A stretch of DNA of 49,773 bases from Acidimicrobiaceae bacterium. GTDB taxonomy: Bacteria; Actinomycetota; Acidimicrobiia; Acidimicrobiales; MedAcidi-G1. The DNA lies in contig PBSS01000001.1 in NCBI GenBank assembly GCA_002726315.1, positions 1-49,773 on the forward strand, read 5' to 3'. This document shows, piece by piece, positions 6,918-26,806 of the stretch. The notes beneath the pieces were generated by a model. It was not told the DNA's origin, ran no database searches, and saw nothing but the letters and a program-made list of their open reading frames with translations. The translations under genes were made by a program, and so were the position numbers. Position 1 is the stretch's first letter. Each line of letters begins with the position of its first letter.

Positions 6918-8851
6918 CAGATGTCCAAAAACCGAACGTCGCGGGCATTCATCTGGATGAATTTCTTCCGGCTTTCTACGTCTTCGCCCATCAGGACTGA
7001 AAACGCCTCATCGGCGATTGATCCCATCTCCACTGACACCTGGAGGAGGCTCCGACTGGAGGTTTCCATTGTGGTCTCATGAAGTTCATCGAAGTCCATT
7101 TCACCGAGTCCCTTCAAACGCTGGAACTCGCGTTTGTGATCCGGGTTGTCAAGTAAAAATGCTGTTTTTGCGTGATCGTCCTTTAGGTAGACCTTCTCCC
7201 TGCCAATGACCGTTGAGAACAATGGTGGTTGAGCAATAAAAACGTGCCCTGCATCAACGAGGGGTCTCATCTGTCTGAAGAAGAATGTGAGCAGCAGGGT
7301 CCGAATGTGGCTTCCGTCGACATCGGCATCACAAAGCAGGATTACCTTGTGGTAGCGGATCTTGTCGAGGTCGAAGTCGTCTCCAAAACCGGCTCCTATG
7401 GCCTGAATTAGTGTCTGGATCTCGTTGTTCTTGAGCATCCGATCTGGGCGAGCCCGCTCAACGTTGAGGATCTTGCCCCGAATGGGAAGGATCGCCATGA
7501 TGCGGGGATTACGGGCCTGGACTGCTGAGCCGCCAGCAGAGTCACCCTCCACAATGAATAGTTCCGATTCGCGCGGGTCCCGCGACGAACAATCCTTGAG
7601 CTTGTCCGGCATACCGGCACCGTCGAGAGCCGACTTTCGCCGAGCCGACTGGCGAGCCTCCTGGGCTGCGATTCGGGCGCGCTGAGCACTAACGGCTTTC
7701 TGAGTGATCCGTCTCGCTTCAGAAGGGTTCTCCTCTAACCAGTCACTCAACTTTTCATTCGTTGCCCTTTGGACGAGAGAACGAATATCCACGTTGCCCA
7801 ACTTCGACTTTGTCTGGCCCTCGAACTGTGGATCGGGTAGGCGGACACTGATGATCGCAGTAAGTCCTTCGCGAATGTCCTCACCCTTGAGGTTGTCGTC
7901 CTTCTCTTTTAAGAAGCCACGATTCTTGGCATAACGGTTCAGCACGCCTGTAAGGGCACTTCGGAAGCCTTCTTCGTGCATGCCTCCCTCAATGGTGTTG
8001 ATCCCGTTGGCGAACGAGTGGAGGCCGTCAGTGTTGAACCCGGTATTCCACTGGAAAGCTAGCTCGACTTCATTGCCCTCATCCTGCTGCTCGAAGTACC
8101 CAACCAAAGAAAAGAGTGACTCCTTTGAAGCGTTGAGGTGTTCTACGAAATCCCTGATGCCGCCCTCATAGCAGAAGGTTGTGGCCTCAACTTGATCGCC
8201 TTCATCGGGTCTCTGGTCGTCAAGAGTTATCTTGAGGCCACTATTCAAGAATGCCATCATCTGCAAGCGTTCAAGAAGGGTCTGGACCCTGAAGTTCACT
8301 TCATCGAACACAGCCGGGTCAGGCCAGAAGCGGACAGTGGTACCAGTGTGATCATCTGGTGAAGGACCAGTCTCTGTCAGGCTCGTTGCTAGACACCCAC
8401 CGTTGGCAAAATCCATGTAATGGCGACGCCCGCTACGGTCAATCTCCACCTCTAGGCGACTGGACAGAGCGTTCACGACAGAGATGCCCACGCCATGGAG
8501 GCCACCCGAGACCTTGTACCCCTCACCTCCAAACTTGCCTCCAGCATGAAGAATCGTAAGGACGACTTCGGCAGCTGTCAGGTCGGGATATTGGTGGTGC
8601 TGATCAACGGGGATTCCACGACCGTCATCAGCTACTTGACATCCGCCATCGGGAAGGAGGGTCACAACTATCCGTGAACAATGGCCCGCCATAGCCTCAT
8701 CCACAGCGTTGTCAACAACCTCCCAGACGAGGTGGTGCAGACCCGTTGGTCCCGTAGAACCTATGTACATGCCGGGGCGTTTACGGACAGCCTCAAGGCC
8801 TTCGAGAACGGTAATGTCAGCAGCGCTGTAGGTAGCCTCTGCACTTGTCAT
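6917..8851 (-). CDS. gyrB: DNA gyrase subunit B
   Basis: The ATPase subunit of gyrase. The GHKL domain is clear: 'LEGLEAVRKRPGMYIG', 'EVVDNAVDEAMAGH', 'DDGRGIPVD' and the loop 'GLHGVGISVVNAL'. It is followed by the transducer, the TOPRIM domain ('EGDSAGGSA', 'LCDADVDGSHIRTL') and a C-terminal GyrA-binding tail ending 'NARDVRFLDI'. I chose the ATG giving 'MTSAEATYSAAD' (644 aa) because GGAGGG lies 6 bases before it; the ORF-track start 18 codons upstream is not needed for the fold. About 170 bases upstream presumably hold the gyrBA promoter, where gyrase genes are often supercoiling-controlled. Confidence 0.97.
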   Translation of the reverse strand: MTSAEATYSAADITVLEGLEAVRKRPGMYIGSTGPTGLHHLVWEVVDNAVDEAMAGHCSRIVVTLLPDGGCQVADDGRGIPVDQHHQYPDLTAAEVVLTILHAGGKFGGEGYKVSGGLHGVGISVVNALSSRLEVEIDRSGRRHYMDFANGGCLATSLTETGPSPDDHTGTTVRFWPDPAVFDEVNFRVQTLLERLQMMAFLNSGLKITLDDQRPDEGDQVEATTFCYEGGIRDFVEHLNASKESLFSLVGYFEQQDEGNEVELAFQWNTGFNTDGLHSFANGINTIEGGMHEEGFRSALTGVLNRYAKNRGFLKEKDDNLKGEDIREGLTAIISVRLPDPQFEGQTKSKLGNVDIRSLVQRATNEKLSDWLEENPSEARRITQKAVSAQRARIAAQEARQSARRKSALDGAGMPDKLKDCSSRDPRESELFIVEGDSAGGSAVQARNPRIMAILPIRGKILNVERARPDRMLKNNEIQTLIQAIGAGFGDDFDLDKIRYHKVILLCDADVDGSHIRTLLLTFFFRQMRPLVDAGHVFIAQPPLFSTVIGREKVYLKDDHAKTAFLLDNPDHKREFQRLKGLGEMDFDELHETTMETSSRSLLQVSVEMGSIADEAFSVLMGEDVESRKKFIQMNARDVRFLDI

Positions 8852-9023
8852 TTGGCACCCTCCGAGTACGGTTCTTTGGGGGAGGGAAGTGACACCTGAC
8901 CACACCCACTGGAAACATAAAATCGCAGGTCAGATGGCCTTATCACGACCTGAATAGCCTATCACCCTTGGGACCGTGACCGGTGCGAACACATTGGTGT
9001 GACCGGTTGTTTTTGAACGCTAT

Positions 9024-19170: not shown

Positions 19171-20163
19171 TCAAGTCGGATCAGCAACCGGATCAGCGAC
19201 CCACGAGCCGACGGCGTCAGAGAGCATTTGCGCCAATTCTGCTGTGGCTTGGACAACCGCACTAGGTGGTGCCAGTGAGCACAGAATTGCTGGCATTCGG
19301 GTACCCCTAAGGATCGGAAGACGCATTCCCTGCACGGGGTCCACACCCAGTCCGGCAGTAGTAAGTGCCGTGGCACACCGATGTGCAAGCCGCAAGCCCC
19401 CCTCGCTGCGGAATCCAGAAGTTTCAAAATAGGCGACTCTGCACCTGGGATTGTTCTCGATTGTTAGACCTAGGTACATCTCGGCATTGAACTGGTTGGC
19501 CGTATCCGCTTGGGTTAGGTCGTCGGGGTGGTCAAGGGCTACAACATCTGCCCCTCGGGCCCGCAGTGATCGAGCGAGAGCCGCTGTCAGGACGGCCGAA
19601 CTACCGAACTGTCCGATCACTAGGCGGCGGTCAGCCAACTCGGGTCCACTACTTCTAAGTTTCTCCAACTCACGCACCTGTGCAACCGGTGCTAATCCGG
19701 TCGAACGAATACCCAAGTTCCTCAGCTCCCTGATCGTTGACGGTCCACAGATTCCATCTGGAACCAAGCCCGTGTTGCGTTGGAAGTCGAGAAGTGCTCT
19801 TGTCGTATCAGGTCCGAAGATTCCGTCAATTCTGCCCGCATCGAATCCAAGACTCCCCAGCCTCAGTTGGAGGTCAGCTATGTCGTCACCATGCAACATG
19901 GGTGTGTGGAGGTATAGGTGTCGATCGCCAAGGTGGTAGCCGGCCTCAACCAGAGCGGCTGACGTGGTCTTGTCTAGAAGACCGTTTTCGTTTAGACCCC
20001 GCTCGGCCTGGAAGCGTTTGAGGCTGGCCGTGGTGCACTCTCCGAAGATTCCCTCAGATACCTCTGGGCCAGTGACCGGAAATGACACAGCGTCGAGTCG
20101 TCTGTGCAGGTCGCGAACTATATCGCCACTCCAGCCAGGGCCTGGTGGTGTTGGCTCAGCCAT
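19171..20163 (-). CDS. cwlM: CwlM-like protein: two peptidoglycan-binding repeats plus degenerate amidase_3 domain
   Basis: I start at the ATG giving 'MAEPTPPGPGW' (330 aa), because the ORF-track start lies in trxA. Two peptidoglycan-binding-1 repeats (about 10-75 and 85-150; 'GIFGECTTASLKRFQ', 'GIFGPDTTRALLDFQ') precede an amidase_3-like fold introduced by 'LRSSGPELADRRLVI', which strongly resembles mycobacterial CwlM. The zinc and catalytic residues are gone: 'VIGQFGSS' replaces DPGHGG, 'LGLTIENN' replaces the SxHxN strand, and 'MPAILCSLA' lacks the late Glu. CwlM in mycobacteria is a regulator of MurA, not a hydrolase; a regulatory role is inferred here. No signal peptide is visible. Confidence 0.85.
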   Translation of the reverse strand: MAEPTPPGPGWSGDIVRDLHRRLDAVSFPVTGPEVSEGIFGECTTASLKRFQAERGLNENGLLDKTTSAALVEAGYHLGDRHLYLHTPMLHGDDIADLQLRLGSLGFDAGRIDGIFGPDTTRALLDFQRNTGLVPDGICGPSTIRELRNLGIRSTGLAPVAQVRELEKLRSSGPELADRRLVIGQFGSSAVLTAALARSLRARGADVVALDHPDDLTQADTANQFNAEMYLGLTIENNPRCRVAYFETSGFRSEGGLRLAHRCATALTTAGLGVDPVQGMRLPILRGTRMPAILCSLAPPSAVVQATAELAQMLSDAVGSWVADPVADPT

Positions 20164-20203: not shown

Positions 20204-20530
20204 CTAGATGTACTCAGCCAACTCTTTGAGCAACTGGGGTTTGCCCTTTGCACCGACCAAGCGTTTGGCAGGCTCACCTCCGTCGAAGAGAATCAGGGTT
20301 GGAATACTCATTACACCAAAGCGCTGGGCTAAGCCTGGAGCGTCGTCGACGTTTACTTTGGCCACACTGAGAGAGTCCGCTTGTTCGTCGGCGATCTCTT
20401 CGAGGACCGGTGCGATCGTCTTGCATGGACCGCACCATTCGGCCCAGAAGTCGACCAGCACCGGACCATTGGCCGAGCCGATCTGTTCGTCGAACGTGCT
20501 GTCTGTCAAGTTCGTGATTGAGCCTGCCAT
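20204..20530 (-). CDS. trxA: thioredoxin
   Basis: A 108-residue thioredoxin with the active site 'WAEWCGPCKTIAPVLEEIA' and the cis-proline strand 'GVMSIPTLILFDGG'. It passes electrons from thioredoxin reductase to protein disulfides in the cytoplasm. It lies between trxB and cwlM on the same strand, the order also seen in mycobacteria (trxB2-trxC-cwlM). Confidence 0.97.
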   Translation of the reverse strand: MAGSITNLTDSTFDEQIGSANGPVLVDFWAEWCGPCKTIAPVLEEIADEQADSLSVAKVNVDDAPGLAQRFGVMSIPTLILFDGGEPAKRLVGAKGKPQLLKELAEYI

Positions 20531-20654: not shown

Positions 20655-21638
20655 CTAGTGCAAGCTCTCCAGCCAACGTTCGGCATCGATGGCTGCCATA
20701 CAACCCGATGCGGCGGCTGTAATTGCTTGCCTGTATCTGTGGTCCTGGATGTCGCCACAGGCAAAGACACCGTCGATACTTGTTGTGGATCGGTCGGCTT
20801 CTGTAATCAGGTAGCCGTTCTCGTCCACGTCTAGTTGGCCTGAGAAAAGTCCTGAGTTCGGCTTATGGCCAATGGCCACGAAGATGCCAGTAACCGGCAA
20901 CTCACGGATCTCATTGGTAATGGTGTCCCGAAGCCGCAGCCCGGTCACCACGGACTCACCCAGGATGTTGTCGACAACCGTGTTCCATGCGAACTCGATC
21001 TTCGGATTGTCAAATGCCCGCTGTTGCATAATCTTAGAAGCGCGCAGTTCATCGCGGCGGTGGATGACGGTCACCTTGTTGGCAAACTTGGTAAGGAAAG
21101 ACGCCTCCTCGATTGCCGAGTCACCACCGCCGACGACAGCTATCTCCTGGTCCCTGAAGAAGAATCCGTCACACGTTGCGCAGGTGGAAAGACCGTGCCC
21201 AATGAGCCGTTGTTCGGCCTCAAGACCAAGCATCACCGACTGTGCTCCAGTGGAGATAATCAGAGAGTCCGCCATGTGGGTAGGTGTAGGTGATTCTGGA
21301 TCGTCGATCCACACCCCGAAAGGCCTACTGGAAAGGTCAACTCGGCTGGCCTTCTGGCTCACGACATCGGCACCGAACCGGATCGCTTGGGCACGCATGT
21401 CAGCCATGAGTTGGGGACCGCTGACACCATCGGGAAAGCCAGGGAAGTTCTCTACCTCGGTGGTGAGCATCAACTGGCCGCCCGGCTGGTCGCTCGTTGA
21501 TGAAGGTTCCCCCTCGATCACCAGTGGTTCTAGGTCAGCCCTAGCGGCATAGATGGCAGCAGTCAGACCGGCGGGCCCGGAGCCAATAATGACAATTCGA
21601 TGGGAGGGAACGGACATGGAATCTCTAGTTGGGTTCAT
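20655..21638 (-). CDS. trxB: thioredoxin reductase
   Basis: An FAD/NADPH flavoprotein that reduces TrxA. It has the FAD motif '[18 protein letters not shown]', the redox-active 'CATCDG', the NADPH motif '[12 protein letters not shown]' and the late FAD motif '[20 protein letters not shown]'. Length about 320 is normal. Two ATGs seven codons apart are possible (21638 or 21617) and neither has a strong ribosome site. It begins 15 bases after the small membrane protein gene. Confidence 0.97.
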
Positions 21639-21653
21639 GATCAGTTGACTGAT

Positions 21654-21992
21654 TCAGCCACTTTGAGGGCCAGTGTTTCGCCGCGACCACAACAGGCAGC
21701 CAACAAGGCACATAGCGGATCCGAATACCAGATGGGCTGACCAACTTTCACCAGGGATGACCACGTCCAGCAGGCGAAATATCCCGAGCAGGAGGAAAAC
21801 TAGGACCGCTACGAGACAGATACTGGCAAGCAATCCGTAGATGATTCCACGGGTGGCGGTGAGTACTGGTTGCGTGGTCGCGGACCTGATTCGGGCAACG
21901 ACCTCCATGGCCCTATCCGTAGCAGTGGTCGCCCAGTCGCGGTCTTCTTCTGACGGCCCAGATTCCTGTCCGGCATCGGTCGGTTTGGGCAT
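21654..21992 (-). CDS. small two-helix membrane protein, function unknown
   Basis: A 112-residue protein with a polar, acidic N-terminal 45 residues and two membrane helices ('IIYGLLASICLVAVLVFLLLGIF' and 'AHLVFGSAMCLVGCLLW'), ending in a short polar tail. I do not recognise a family. It sits between a membrane-anchored pseudokinase and trxB in one operon, the place occupied by sigM and its anti-sigma factor in mycobacteria, but it has no anti-sigma motif I can see. Confidence 0.7.
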   Translation of the reverse strand: MPKPTDAGQESGPSEEDRDWATTATDRAMEVVARIRSATTQPVLTATRGIIYGLLASICLVAVLVFLLLGIFRLLDVVIPGESWSAHLVFGSAMCLVGCLLWSRRNTGPQSG

Positions 21993-22055: not shown

Positions 22056-22853
22056 TCAGCCTCTAGTTTCCGTTACTGCTGATCCCTCTGGCGTCGACTC
22101 ACCCCCGTAGAGGATTCTCGAAGCTGCCGAAGCGACAGCGATGGTGGCAATCAGGGCAGCGAGTGCAATGAGCCAACGACTTGTGTGGCAGTCAGTGCCT
22201 GTCGCTCCTATGGGTTTGAGAGAAAGCCTGAATTCTAGGAGGCTGGGGAGTCCCGAGAAATCCGTTGACAATTGAAGACTCGTGAACTGGGTCAAATGGG
22301 GAGGAATCAAGTCGCGTCGGCAGCGGGAAAGAAGTTCGGCAAGGACGACCCCAAGCCCAGCGATATCAGGTGTCGCATCCAGTGATCCAGATCCATCGGC
22401 TCGTCCCCGAAAGTCGGTGAGGTGGACCGCTCCGTTGTCTGTGAGAAGGATGTTGGATGACTTCACTGAACCATGGGGAACACCAAGTTCGTGTGCATCG
22501 GAAAGAATCTTGGCTACGCCATCAACAATGTCGATGACGTGATCGACTCGCAGGGTGATTCCTTGTTCCAGTATCCGGTCAAGTGGCCAGGCATCTACCC
22601 ACTCCGACACAACCACGGCGAGACCCTCGTAGGTGAGTGTGTCGTATACAGCTACCGCACCCGTTATCGCCAGGCGACCTGCTCCCGTGGGAACGTCGCC
22701 GGAGCGGATCAATTTAATTGCTACCGAACGTTGAAGGACCTTGTCGTAGCCGCGCCAGACCTCGGCACAGGAGGTGTCAGAAACCTGGTTCCCGAGTCGG
22801 TACCGGCGACCGATGATGGTGCCGGGGGGAATCAACTTTCGAGTGTGAAACAC
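22056..22853 (-). CDS. membrane-anchored protein kinase-like pseudokinase
   Basis: A Ser/Thr-kinase fold of about 215 residues followed by a C-terminal membrane helix ('WLIALAALIATIAVASAAS') and a short tail. The ATP-lysine strand 'SVAIKLI' is kept, but there is no glycine-rich loop ('GNQVSDTSCAEV'), the catalytic loop reads 'HGSVKSSNILL' (HRD Asp replaced) and DFG is 'DFRG'. It is therefore probably inactive. In mycobacteria the pseudokinase of MurJ/MviN lies near trxB and cwlM, so this may be a stand-alone equivalent. The GTG start overlaps degV by 22 bases; a TTG at 22835 would give a 4-base overlap. Confidence 0.78.
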   Translation of the reverse strand: MFHTRKLIPPGTIIGRRYRLGNQVSDTSCAEVWRGYDKVLQRSVAIKLIRSGDVPTGAGRLAITGAVAVYDTLTYEGLAVVVSEWVDAWPLDRILEQGITLRVDHVIDIVDGVAKILSDAHELGVPHGSVKSSNILLTDNGAVHLTDFRGRADGSGSLDATPDIAGLGVVLAELLSRCRRDLIPPHLTQFTSLQLSTDFSGLPSLLEFRLSLKPIGATGTDCHTSRWLIALAALIATIAVASAASRILYGGESTPEGSAVTETRG

Positions 22854-23668
22854 ATTCCCACGACTCCGGGGCCACCGTGGCTTGCAACCACGGGACCAAT
22901 AACACCAACCCTCGTGCTTGCTGGATCGACCACTGTGGCCAGCATCTCTAGAAGGACATCGATGTCGGCAGCCTGTGCGTGCAGGACCGAAAGATTCGAG
23001 ATGGCGTCACCGTGTTCTGCGGCCTTGTCTCTGAGCCAGGCCAGAGATTTCCTGCGGGTTCGCTGCCTTCCAGCCTCCTCGACAACCCCGGAACTGATGT
23101 CTAGGAGGGGCTTGATTGAAAGAACACTTCCCATGAGCGCCTGTGCATTGCCGATTCGACCACCTTTCTTGAGGTTGTCCAGCGTGTCGATGGCCCCGTA
23201 GACGCGTGTGCGGTTCCTGAGGTCTTCAACTAGGGCCACTACCTCGTCTGCCGAGGCTCCGTCGATGGCCGCTTGAGCTGCCTTGAGCACCATTGTGCCA
23301 AGGCCACCCGTGACGGATCTACTGTCCACGAGACGGATGTCAGCGCCCAGGTCTCGTGCTCCGGTTTCGGCAGACTGCAAGGTCGCTGAGAGGCCCGCCG
23401 ACAGGTTTATGCACACGATGGAGTCAGCACCCTCCTCAAGTCGTCTCCTGAACATGGTTTCGAACGCGCCTGGTGCGGGCGCTGCGGTCTGCGGCAGATC
23501 GTCACTGGCTGCCATCCGGGTATAGAAGTCCTCGACACTCAACTCGTCTCGATCAAGGAACTGTTGTTCACCGAAGCGGATACTTAGGGGAACAACGTCG
23601 ATTCCGAGCGACGAGATCTCTTCGTTGCTGAGGTCACAGGCACTGTCGGTAATAATTCTGACGGTCAT
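22832..23668 (-). CDS. DegV family (FakB-like) fatty-acid-binding protein
   Basis: A 278-residue DegV protein with 'IITDSACDLS' at the N-terminus, 'INLSAGLSATLQSAE' and 'DSRSVTGGLGTMVL' around the acyl pocket, and 'LDNLKKGGRIGNAQALMGSVLSIKPLL', the most conserved family segment. Members bind free fatty acids and, with FakA, feed them into phospholipid synthesis. No fakA is in the window. It overlaps the GNAT gene before it by four bases (ATGA) and the pseudokinase after it, so it is part of one operon. Confidence 0.9.
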   Translation of the reverse strand: MTVRIITDSACDLSNEEISSLGIDVVPLSIRFGEQQFLDRDELSVEDFYTRMAASDDLPQTAAPAPGAFETMFRRRLEEGADSIVCINLSAGLSATLQSAETGARDLGADIRLVDSRSVTGGLGTMVLKAAQAAIDGASADEVVALVEDLRNRTRVYGAIDTLDNLKKGGRIGNAQALMGSVLSIKPLLDISSGVVEEAGRQRTRRKSLAWLRDKAAEHGDAISNLSVLHAQAADIDVLLEMLATVVDPASTRVGVIGPVVASHGGPGVVGMCFTLES

Positions 23669-24423
23669 GATGTCTCCTCGTTAGGGTCGCAGCGTAGTCG
23701 CGGGGGTGAACCCTCTAGACGGAGCACTGCAAGTCCGCCAGGGTGCTCAACGAACCCAAACTGTTCGTACAGGGATAGGGCTGCTTCGTTGTCTGGCTGG
23801 GTGTTGACGAGGGCACTCCTAGCGCCCTTGGAATACAGCCAACTGAGCCCGTCTGCAATGAGCGAGCTACCGACACCGATTCTCCTGGCATCGGGATCTA
23901 CTGCGAGTCGCTGGATGAAACCCGTTTGGTCAGAGCGACCTGTCACCGCGTAGCCGAGAACCGCTTTACCGGATCGAACCACCCGTCTGCGGCTGGTCGG
24001 GGTGGCCGAGAAAGCTTCTCCGAGAGAAGCAGCGTCGAATTGCCAGAAGCTTGTGAATGAAGCAACGTCGATTGCGAGACTAAGAGCAACGTCTTGTTGT
24101 CTCATCCTTCTGGTGCGGTGGCTCGATTGGCTAACTATCTCAGGTCTCAGGTCCAACTCGAGGAGGTGAAGGGGCTCATGTGTTCGGTATCCGGCCTCCA
24201 AGAAAGGCGTCTGTTCACTAGGCCCGAGTGCCGCCGTCAGGATTTCGTGAAAACCTAGGTTCAGCAATAGGTCTGATATCTCCCCAACAGCGCCATGGTC
24301 GACAATGCCCCCACCGATGGAAATGACTTGGGCTATCGAAGTTGATCCGCGCCACGGGCCATATCGGAAACGTGCGCCACTGTGTGTGGTGGACACGGTT
24401 CGAATCGGTATAGCGGACGACAT
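23665..24423 (-). CDS. GNAT family N-acetyltransferase
   Basis: The C-terminal half holds a clear GNAT domain: 'IQRLAVDPDARRIGVGSSLIADGLSWL' is the acetyl-CoA-binding motif A, followed by 'VNTQPDNEAALSLYEQFGF'. The N-terminal half (about 1-110) is less conserved and may be a degenerate second GNAT fold. The ATG at 24423 is chosen; an in-frame TTG eight codons upstream is the alternative. First gene of the operon leading to degV, pseudokinase, trxB, trxA and cwlM. Substrate unknown. Confidence 0.82.
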   Translation of the reverse strand: MSSAIPIRTVSTTHSGARFRYGPWRGSTSIAQVISIGGGIVDHGAVGEISDLLLNLGFHEILTAALGPSEQTPFLEAGYRTHEPLHLLELDLRPEIVSQSSHRTRRMRQQDVALSLAIDVASFTSFWQFDAASLGEAFSATPTSRRRVVRSGKAVLGYAVTGRSDQTGFIQRLAVDPDARRIGVGSSLIADGLSWLYSKGARSALVNTQPDNEAALSLYEQFGFVEHPGGLAVLRLEGSPPRLRCDPNEETS

Positions 24424-24554
24424 TTCTGGTGTGTTGTCGATAATCAACCCACCCTACGGCTCCCTAACCCATGCAGCCTTCCCGTCTACCTACTGTTGAT
24501 GCCGAATGGGAGGCCCCACTCCTCTGACCCGGACTGGACGGTTACGCTCGGCGC

Positions 24555-25562
24555 GTGACCGTGCTGATGGTGACAGACGAACGGTTCCTGGATCATCGAA
24601 GGGAGCGGAGCCACCCCGAGTGTCCCGCACGGCTTCAGGCCGTCTGGTCGGGAATGGAGGCAGCTGGCGTGGCCGATGCGATCATCGGGCGTGAGCCAAC
24701 TCCCTCTACCGATGCCGACCTGTTGCGCTGTCATTCACCAGCACAACTGGAGAAGTTAGAGAAGCTTCACGCCGTTGGTGGCGGACAGGTGGATATCGAC
24801 ACCTACATGGGTGCGGGATCATGGGAGGCTGCACGCCTGGCATCGGGAGCAGGCCTAGTGGCGGCAACTGCTCTCAGAGAAGCCGAGGCCGACGTCGCCT
24901 TCTGTGCTGTACGGCCACCTGGCCACCACGCCACATCAGCTACCTCGATGGGATTCTGCCTCGTAAACAACTTGGCGGTGACGGCGGCTGCCTTGGTTGC
25001 AACTGGTGAGCGGGTGGCGGTGGTGGACATCGACGCCCACCATGGCAACGGAACACAGGACATCTTTTATGACGACAATCGAGTCATGTTCGTTTCGATC
25101 CACCAGTGGCCCCTATACCCGGGAACTGGCAGAATCGACGAGATCGGCGAAGGGGAGGGGAAGGGCACCACACTCAATTTGCCGCTACCGGTCGGTTCCG
25201 CCGGTGATACCTATCGTTACGCCCTTGATGCCACTGTCATTCCAGTGATTGAGAGGTTTGATCCGGACTGGTTGTTGGTTTCTGCCGGTTTCGACGGGCA
25301 CAGATTGGATCCTCTTTCAAATCTGGGTCTGACGTCCGGCGACTTTGCTGACATGAGCGCGCGAATCGTGAGGCTTGTACCACCCAGACGCTGCATCCTG
25401 TTTCTCGAGGGGGGCTATGACCTAGGTGCCCTTTCCGATTCGGTCGGTGCAGCCTTGGCTGCAGTCGTTGGGGTTGACCACAGGCCCGAACCATCCAGCG
25501 GAGCGGGCCCTGGCAGCGACGTGGTCGATGAGGCGGCACGGATCCACGGGGTCAACAGATGA
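24555..25562 (+). CDS. histone deacetylase family protein (AcuC/HDAC-like amidohydrolase)
   Basis: A zinc-dependent deacetylase fold of 335 residues. It has the N-terminal 'HPECPARLQAV', the 'RPPGHHAT' histidine pair, the metal motif 'DIDAHHGNGTQDIFY' and 'SAGFDGHRLDPLSNLGL' with the second metal aspartate region. Bacterial members deacetylate proteins (AcuC on acetyl-CoA synthetase), polyamines or small molecules; the target here is unknown. The start is GTG and the end overlaps the CCA enzyme by four bases. Confidence 0.92.
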   Translation: MTVLMVTDERFLDHRRERSHPECPARLQAVWSGMEAAGVADAIIGREPTPSTDADLLRCHSPAQLEKLEKLHAVGGGQVDIDTYMGAGSWEAARLASGAGLVAATALREAEADVAFCAVRPPGHHATSATSMGFCLVNNLAVTAAALVATGERVAVVDIDAHHGNGTQDIFYDDNRVMFVSIHQWPLYPGTGRIDEIGEGEGKGTTLNLPLPVGSAGDTYRYALDATVIPVIERFDPDWLLVSAGFDGHRLDPLSNLGLTSGDFADMSARIVRLVPPRRCILFLEGGYDLGALSDSVGAALAAVVGVDHRPEPSSGAGPGSDVVDEAARIHGVNR

Positions 25563-26806
25563 GCGACTCATTTGACGGTCAACGTAGGGTGGTCGCCCCG
25601 CTTGCTGACCGGTTCGACAGAGCAGGCCACCGTCTCTACCTGGTTGGTGGTGTGGTTCGAGATGGGCTGATGGGTCGACAAGTCGACACTCCTGATCTGG
25701 ACCTGACCACCGATGCCACACCTGCACAAACGAGGGTGCTGGTGGACGGAATCGTAGATGCTGTGTGGCTACAGGGTGAGCGGTTCGGGACCATCGGAGT
25801 CAGATTGGCCGGACACACAATCGAGATAACGACCCACCGTGCTGAGGTCTACACATCAGACTCCCGAAAGCCAGGCGTTTCCTATTCGACTGATCTGGTC
25901 GAGGATCTGAGCAGGCGTGACTTCACAGTTAACGCCATGGCCGTGGATGTCGTTGACGGAGTTCTCCATGATCCTCACGGTGGTCGCTTGGATCTAGATG
26001 CCGGGTTGTTGAGGACGCCGCTGGATCCAGAAATTTCGTTCACCGACGATCCACTCCGGATGATGCGGGCCGCACGCTTTATAGCCGGTTATGGCTTTAC
26101 CCCTGCTCCCGGTCTATTGGATGCAGTAACGAGTCTTGCTGACCGGATGGAAATCGTGTCAGCTGAGCGGAAGTGCGTTGAACTGTTCCGGCTGCTATCC
26201 CTTCCAGATCCCGGACCCGGATTGGTGGTGTTGGTCGAAGCTGGTCTTGTCAGGTACGTGTTTCCCAAGGTGGCGGGCCTCGGCCGCCGCGTTCTCTCCG
26301 GAGTCTTCGATCAGATGGTTAGAGCCCCGGCTGAGCCCCTGTTGCGCCTAGTGGTATTTAGTCCTGTTGTAGGTGTTGCAGGCCTGCAAGAGATGGCCGT
26401 GGGGCTGCGGATGTCTGGGCGCGATATAGCTGACTTGATGAGTTTGGCACAAACAATCAACGACGTTGTAAGTGCTGACGACACAAGGTGGTCCGATGAG
26501 AAGGTGCGCCGTCTGGCATCGCGAGCAGGCAACATGCTGGATTCGGCGATGCGCCTGGTCACCTCCCTTGGCCTAGATGACGGAGCTCTTACCGTCGCCG
26601 TGGATCGACTCAGCGATGCTGGAGAACTCGACGATTTGGGTCCTGCACTGGACGGTGCCGCAGTTATGGACTTGCTGTGCCTGTCGCCAGGAATCGAAGT
26701 CGGCGAGGCTCTGGCATGGCTAGGAGAGCTCCGGCTCAGTGAGGGCCGTCTAGGTCCGGATGAGTCAGCGAAACGGCTGTCAGCCTGGTGGAATGAGCGC
26801 TTCTGA
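25559..26806 (+). CDS. cca: CCA tRNA nucleotidyltransferase (poly(A) polymerase family)
   Basis: A class II nucleotidyltransferase that adds or repairs tRNA 3' CCA. It has 'YLVGGVVRDGLMG', the metal-binding 'DLDLTTDA', 'GERFGTIGV', 'RRDFTVNAMAVD' and 'DDPLRMMRAARFIAGYGF'. The actinobacterial enzymes usually carry an HD phosphohydrolase domain; I cannot find its histidine motif in the C-terminal 200 residues, and at 415 residues the protein is somewhat short. Two of the three tRNAs in the window encode CCA and tRNA-Ile does not, so this enzyme is needed for synthesis as well as repair. Confidence 0.93.
   Translation: MSDSFDGQRRVVAPLADRFDRAGHRLYLVGGVVRDGLMGRQVDTPDLDLTTDATPAQTRVLVDGIVDAVWLQGERFGTIGVRLAGHTIEITTHRAEVYTSDSRKPGVSYSTDLVEDLSRRDFTVNAMAVDVVDGVLHDPHGGRLDLDAGLLRTPLDPEISFTDDPLRMMRAARFIAGYGFTPAPGLLDAVTSLADRMEIVSAERKCVELFRLLSLPDPGPGLVVLVEAGLVRYVFPKVAGLGRRVLSGVFDQMVRAPAEPLLRLVVFSPVVGVAGLQEMAVGLRMSGRDIADLMSLAQTINDVVSADDTRWSDEKVRRLASRAGNMLDSAMRLVTSLGLDDGALTVAVDRLSDAGELDDLGPALDGAAVMDLLCLSPGIEVGEALAWLGELRLSEGRLGPDESAKRLSAWWNERF

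Follow-up and report, generated by a model that had tools for sequence, protein, structure and literature searches.

The open reading frame at positions 22056 to 22853 of the window (the whole stretch of DNA analyzed, 49,773 nucleotides from an Acidimicrobiaceae bacterium) was confirmed as a genuine gene, whose kinase-fold product is catalytically dead as judged by its motifs. The best overall explanation, which we consider moderately probable, is that it descends from a membrane receptor kinase of the murJ locus and has become a dead adaptor.

The gene, its product, and its neighborhood

The gene, the parts of its product, and the surrounding locus are arranged as follows.

22056 to 22853, minus strand: tail-anchored pseudokinase gene, 265 aa, GTG start
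22218 to 22826, minus strand: kinase-fold domain, residues 10 to 212, from an AlphaFold2 model and HHalign to the locus kinases
22803 to 22805, minus strand: R17, dimer-face companion of L40
22734 to 22736, minus strand: L40, the equivalent of PknB L33 and MviN L750 on the dimer face, kept in three dead lineages
22713 to 22715, minus strand: K47, the VAIK lysine, kept and invariant in orthologs
22641 to 22643, minus strand: D71, dimer-face companion of L40
22467 to 22475, minus strand: degenerate HRD motif, His-Gly-Ser (residues 127 to 129), from the ortholog alignment
22407 to 22415, minus strand: degenerate DFG motif, Asp-Phe-Arg (residues 147 to 149), with the Asp kept, from the ortholog alignment
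22107 to 22184, minus strand: C-terminal transmembrane helix, residues 224 to 249, from the structure model and hydropathy
22832 to 23668, minus strand: degV (DegV family; Pfam DegV, 257 bits), directly upstream and overlapping, a conserved neighbor
21654 to 21992, minus strand: holin-X-like small membrane protein, directly downstream and conserved (Pfam PF07332, 18 bits, below the cut-off)
20655 to 21638, minus strand: trxB
20204 to 20530, minus strand: trxA
19171 to 20130, minus strand: CwlM-like protein carrying two PG_binding_1 domains; its start is uncertain (open frame to 20277)
23665 to 24447, minus strand: GNAT acetyltransferase
25559 to 26806, plus strand: pcnB, at the edge of the conserved locus

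An earlier note on this DNA had claimed that the kinase fold lost its Gly-rich loop, the HRD aspartate, and the DFG glycine and was tethered by one C-terminal helix, and these losses were borne out: SDTSCAEVW stands where the Gly-rich loop is expected, HRD reads HGS, DFG reads DFR, and the helix spans residues 224 to 249. The αC helix and the activation segment with its APE motif are missing as well, and the position of the HRD aspartate is Ser or Ala in all pseudokinase orthologs. K47, the catalytic-loop asparagine N134, and the DFG aspartate D147 are invariant in every aligned ortholog. Because these three are kept, the window pseudokinase has lost fewer ATP-site residues than MviN, the mycobacterial MurJ with a fused pseudokinase; at the VAIK lysine position, mycobacterial pseudokinases have Thr and streptomycete pseudokinases have His. 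The kept Lys, Asn, and Asp could support putative nucleotide binding. The Pfam Pkinase model matched with 34.6 bits (cut-off, 31.7) and spanned residues 67 to 148 only. With neither PASTA repeats nor intact catalytic motifs, the protein is unlike the PASTA kinases PknA and PknB.

An AlphaFold2 model built from 13 orthologs, of moderate confidence (pLDDT 73, pTM 0.64), has five N-lobe strands without αC, a shortened C-lobe without an activation segment, and a terminal helix at residues 224 to 249. Hydropathy placed the transmembrane segment at residues 227 to 245, and a tail of about 20 residues lies beyond the helix. By the same measure, every ortholog has a single C-terminal transmembrane segment, with 1 to 38 residues after it. 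Foldseek matches of the model were PknA, PknB, and other kinases. In a profile search of the PDB, PknA, PknB, and StkP came out on top, and MviN (3OTV, 3UQC, and 3OUN) was recovered with an E value of 1.4e-9 over profile positions 10 to 176, a longer alignment than those to PknA and PknB. These two kinases rank first in both the Foldseek and the PDB sequence searches because they are intact.

The first 22 nt of the pseudokinase gene lie within the 3′ end of degV, so translation of the two genes is likely to be coupled. On the other side, trxB, trxA, and the CwlM-like gene are neighbors as had been stated, with the holin-X-like gene intervening before trxB. This small gene precedes trxB and follows the kinase and sigM genes in the window's family and in much of the class. 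In relatives, DUF6049 (plus murJ in other families) is placed between the GNAT gene and degV. Two other genera of the family, g4 and g5, have the DUF6049 gene (40.4 bits) at this place and an ECF sigma factor gene (Sigma70_r2, 73.6 bits) directly behind the pseudokinase, accompanied by a membrane anti-sigma-like gene. The membrane protein behind the sigma factor (L091, 8079 to 8906; L088, about 7790 to 8880; and similar) has no convincing Pfam match, and the position of its gene suggests an anti-sigma factor. Farther along, between rsmG and cwlM, parA and parB were not found in five g5 genomes (L086 to L090). At this gap, L087 and L089 carry two different genes, one encoding a MerR/excisionase-like protein (EYVSLKEASRRFGYEVSTIRRWLK) and the other a coiled-coil protein (DELYLDEILALT). 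The chromosome partition pair may have been replaced, or parA and parB may have relocated.

Ancestry and repeated loss of catalysis

To place the gene, we compared gene orders across the phylum. Other Acidimicrobiia have, whole or in large part, the order DUF6049-murJ-degV-kinase-sigM-holX-trxB-trxA-cwlM-parB (L188 and L190 to L193). Mycobacteria-like genomes (f34) have murJ with the kinase fused, followed by sigM-trxB-trxA-cwlM, and Streptomyces-like genomes (g45) have murJ, a separate kinase, sigM, trxB, and trxA. From these orders, the window pseudokinase stands where MviN has its C-terminal half. The window locus no longer holds murJ, sigM and its partner, or DUF6049. The departure of murJ is common to the window's family, the loss of sigM and the anti-sigma-like partner from the locus extends to the window's genus, and DUF6049 is gone from the locus in all but one genome of that genus. 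Elsewhere in the genome, murJ was found in 46 of 48 family genomes and was undetected in the window's own assembly, which is 88% complete.

Most other Acidimicrobiia examined have kinases of 375 to 680 aa at this slot, with GxGGM, VAVK, HRD, DFG, and APE intact. Nearly all of them end in a domain of roughly 150 aa that also forms the C terminus of MviN and the Streptomyces-type protein; a model of this ectodomain built from Acidimicrobiia alone matches MviN (E about 1e-20) and the Streptomyces-type protein (E 7e-14 to 2e-26). In MviN, the domain has been called carbohydrate-binding (PMC12599244). It was found in 118 of 247 genomes of the phylum and in none of the 48 family genomes, where it was not found as a separate gene either. 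The mycobacterial slot invoked for the window gene recurs in Acidimicrobiia, with kinases that share an ectodomain with MviN. The separateness of the gene, to which the note had pointed, turned out to be ordinary: stand-alone kinase-transmembrane-ectodomain genes are found across the phylum, and by a hand comparison of tables, at least 30 genomes have the ectodomain gene directly after an unfused murJ in the same orientation, against 6 with a fusion. On the sequences compared, a separate gene is the common state of the locus kinase and the mycobacterial fusion is the exception; the unusual part is the dead, ectodomain-less, tail-anchored form.

Profile comparison pointed to the same lineage. 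HHalign of the pseudokinases scored best against the locus kinases (268, E 6.6e-40, 207 columns) and second best against the PASTA PknB paralogs (215). The streptomycete and mycobacterial MviN pseudokinases scored 89 and 86.5, respectively, both with narrow alignments. Orthologous position and closest profile both fit the lineage of the murJ-locus receptor kinase. What stands of the idea of an MviN module in a separate gene is the locus and the gene lineage; the ectodomain is missing, and Lys, Asn, and Asp residues that MviN lost are kept.

In the kinase tree, a clade of the pseudokinases and the Acidimicrobiia locus kinases had support of 58/70, with a pseudokinase branch of about 2 changes per site, and all locus kinases as one clade were allowed (p-AU 0.55). 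Joining the pseudokinases to their genomes' PknB-like (p-AU 0.023) or PknA-like (p-AU 0.022) kinases was rejected, and an origin from the genome's own PASTA kinases is rejected at a p-AU of about 0.02.

We envisage an ancestral gene in the ancestors of Actinomycetota that would have encoded a kinase, a transmembrane segment, and a sugar-binding-like ectodomain, beside murJ and ahead of sigM-trxB-trxA-cwlM. In mycobacteria, it would have been fused to murJ and lost catalysis; in streptomycetes, it would have been kept separate and also died; and in many Acidimicrobiia and other families, it would have stayed separate and complete. In the window's family, the kinase would have lost its activity, part of its length, and its ectodomain, and murJ would have moved out of the locus.

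Catalysis was apparently lost more than once. In a tree of the ectodomain only, intact and dead kinases alternate, giving 7 changes with all rows and 5 without three doubtful rows, counts that are soft because many branches are poorly supported and the strongly supported ones force only 3 changes. Without the three rows, a single clade of dead forms was rejected (p-AU 0.042). L256, one of those removed, has an open reading frame that looks abnormal or cut at the N terminus, with HRD and DFG intact. The window's family, which has no ectodomain, represents one further death beyond these changes. By sequence comparison, the window pseudokinase most likely died independently of MviN. Because the kinase tree allows all pseudokinases as a single clade (p-AU 0.30), the argument for independence comes mainly from distribution: in families f2 and f4, which belong to the same order, the slot is occupied by intact kinases, and the dead forms have not all lost the same residues. 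Separately, the murJ-adjacent locus kinases of family f24 (L176, L178, and L258) have HRN or HGS together with DFS, are complete in other respects (Gly loop, Lys, and APE-like motif), and are apparent intermediates between active kinase and pseudokinase.

Distribution and selection

A search of 48 genomes of one Acidimicrobiales family recovered 15 full-length orthologs, the window's included. They occur in six of seven genomes of the window's genus (g1), five of six g5 genomes, and four of eight g4 genomes, and none was found in g3 or g6. The other 14 orthologs all sit at the same syntenic position. A contig scan with the ortholog alignment returned 13 loci, all in actinobacterial MAGs, and the same kind of scan with a single pseudokinase protein as the query returned zero matches. 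The relatives' MAGs are labeled Acidimicrobiales, Acidimicrobiaceae, and Candidatus Microthrix, and several are probably marine, judging from isolate names.

Could the gene be a remnant in slow decay, left without a purpose once murJ, sigM, and the ectodomain had gone, with the rest now eroding? Its absence from g3, g6, and part of g4 fits this reading, as does an overall pN/pS of 0.34, among the higher values of the neighboring genes. One genome of the window's genus (G029) carries a frameshifted, internally deleted copy (L095, 8760 to 9280), with DUF6049 still there; this copy is either a natural loss under way or an assembly error. Lost in g3 and g6 and decayed in G029, the gene is dispensable. 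Nevertheless, we consider decay unlikely. Among three close members of the window's genus, dN/dS is 0.18 to 0.23 (about 0.2 for close pairs), which resembles gnat, pcnB, and rsmG and exceeds degV, trxB, and cwlM. About 40 alignment columns are invariant across three genera, and the reading frame and transmembrane segment are intact in 15 of 15 full-length orthologs. By these substitution patterns, the pseudokinase is under purifying selection in the window's genus.

Regulation of the adjacent ECF sigma factor SigM, by membrane docking or anti-sigma control, is quite improbable. In g4 and g5, the sigma gene lies directly downstream, and the two genes occur together in nine genomes and singly in none; however, joint loss of neighbors may be one deletion, and sigM is already paired with a membrane anti-sigma-like gene of its own. 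The window's genus retains the pseudokinase without SigM, and a tie to SigM as the sole function is ruled out by the absence of the sigma factor there.

Dimer face, mechanism, and known systems

Intact locus kinases have 82 invariant positions (15 or 16 of 16). The family's pseudokinases retain 22 of these, and 11 of them are shared by all of the three dead lineages. R17, L40, and D71 are all among these 11 survivors (hypergeometric 0.0019, with positions treated as independent), being kept in 14/14, 14/14, and 13/14 family members, respectively, in 5/5 mycobacterial pseudokinases, and in 6/6 streptomycete ones. They stand at the positions of PknB R10, L33, and D76, residues of the back-to-back dimer. 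Structures of the PknB L33D mutant were among the Foldseek matches. In MviN, L750 and D793 make dimer contacts like those in other kinases (PMC12599244), and their spacing fits the positions of L40 and D71. Kinases in general conserve the residues of this face, and folding may be the reason that they persist here.

On the favored reading, the pseudokinase would be a non-catalytic, tail-anchored, kinase-fold membrane adaptor whose conserved N-lobe back face pairs with itself or with one of the two PASTA kinases of the window's genome (L212 and L213). A PASTA kinase is the most likely partner. The adaptor would keep the kinase, or the substrates of the kinase, at the membrane site of wall-precursor synthesis and would tune kinase activity, so that control would run from adaptor to kinase. 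A broader proposal, which we offer tentatively and with less confidence than the favored explanation, is that catalysis was lost independently several times in a widespread stand-alone receptor kinase encoded beside murJ, the MviN pseudokinase being one such case. Dead forms would have persisted because their N-lobe dimer face still lets them pair with active PASTA kinases where the wall is synthesized, and the window protein would be the most stripped-down example.

The earlier note had instead read the protein as a stand-alone MviN pseudokinase that, after phosphorylation by PknB, would bring in FhaA, thereby control MurJ, and act together with its CwlM-like neighbor; of the alternatives, this is the least probable. 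For MviN itself, the model is that phosphorylation of the tail by PknB leads to FhaA binding and to a fall in wall synthesis (PMC12599244, PMC10166564). The shared locus lineage is in keeping with the note's reading, as are the PASTA kinases described above, together with two small FHA proteins other than FhaA in the window's genome and FhaA itself in three of four g4 genomes carrying the pseudokinase. However, FhaA (FhaA_N) was not found in 7/7 genomes of the window's genus or in 6/6 genomes of g5, a genus in which the pseudokinase is frequent, so FhaA recruitment cannot be the mechanism in that genus. Nor was a conserved juxtamembrane Thr with an FHA-type phosphorylation motif seen in the ortholog alignment or the tails. 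MurJ is unfused and encoded away from the pseudokinase locus: neither a kinase nor the ectodomain was found in open reading frames of 20 family murJ loci, and long murJ frames such as that of G023 extend N-terminally with no kinase fusion. A fused pseudokinase on another MurJ, the case that the note had named as contrary to its reading, is ruled out in these 20 loci. Proximity to cwlM argues only weakly for contact, as CwlM of M. tuberculosis binds MurJ at its linker (E541 to F680), outside the pseudokinase domain (PMC6180346); the CwlM-like protein is a possible partner that our analysis does not support. Judged on genome content and alignments, the PknB-FhaA-MurJ mechanism does not carry over unchanged to the window protein.

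The extended MviN pseudokinase domain has been described only in organisms with an arabinogalactan layer (PMC10166564). Our comparisons agree for the fusion and not for the module, since the kinase-transmembrane-ectodomain protein is widely encoded by a gene of its own, often with the kinase intact. In the literature searched, which covered few subscription journals, we found no statement of the module's origin from a separate murJ-side receptor kinase. The evidence indicates that the MviN module derives from such a kinase, catalytically complete and beside murJ, which has died several times. Kinases that control the wall appear to lose catalysis repeatedly and yet keep a partner-binding face. 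The live relatives offer an assay of the ancestral substrate and signal, and the reduced natural form raises the question of what is worth retaining once a kinase is dead.

Among known systems, M. tuberculosis MviN/MurJ (Rv3910; PDB 3OTV, 3OUK, 3OUN, and 3UQC) occupies the same slot, at the end of murJ and ahead of sigM-trxB-trxA-cwlM. Like MviN, the window protein has lost the HRD Asp, the Gly loop, and the activation segment, has kept the dimer face, and has a transmembrane segment after the kinase domain. Unlike MviN, it is an unfused 265-aa protein without ectodomain or αC, it has the VAIK Lys, the catalytic-loop Asn, and the DFG Asp, and its genus is without FhaA. The ActPs3 family of bacterial pseudokinases is likewise actinobacterial, with an activation-loop deletion, smaller deletions, and, in many members, a C-terminal transmembrane segment (PMC12599244). 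That family is characterized by canonical motifs that are completely degraded (PMC12599244), whereas the window family keeps K47, N134, and D147 invariant. The Streptomyces-type pseudokinase between murJ and sigM (L161 and L166 to L171) is also separate, dead, and membrane-anchored, but at 572 to 755 aa it has the ectodomain and an N-terminal extension, has lost Lys, Asn, and Asp, and still adjoins murJ. Finally, the stand-alone kinase-transmembrane-ectodomain genes beside murJ or trxB in other Actinomycetota (for example, L183, L193, and L265) occupy the orthologous slot and give the best profile match; their products are catalytically complete by motif and bear the ectodomain, and the window protein is neither complete nor ectodomain-bearing.
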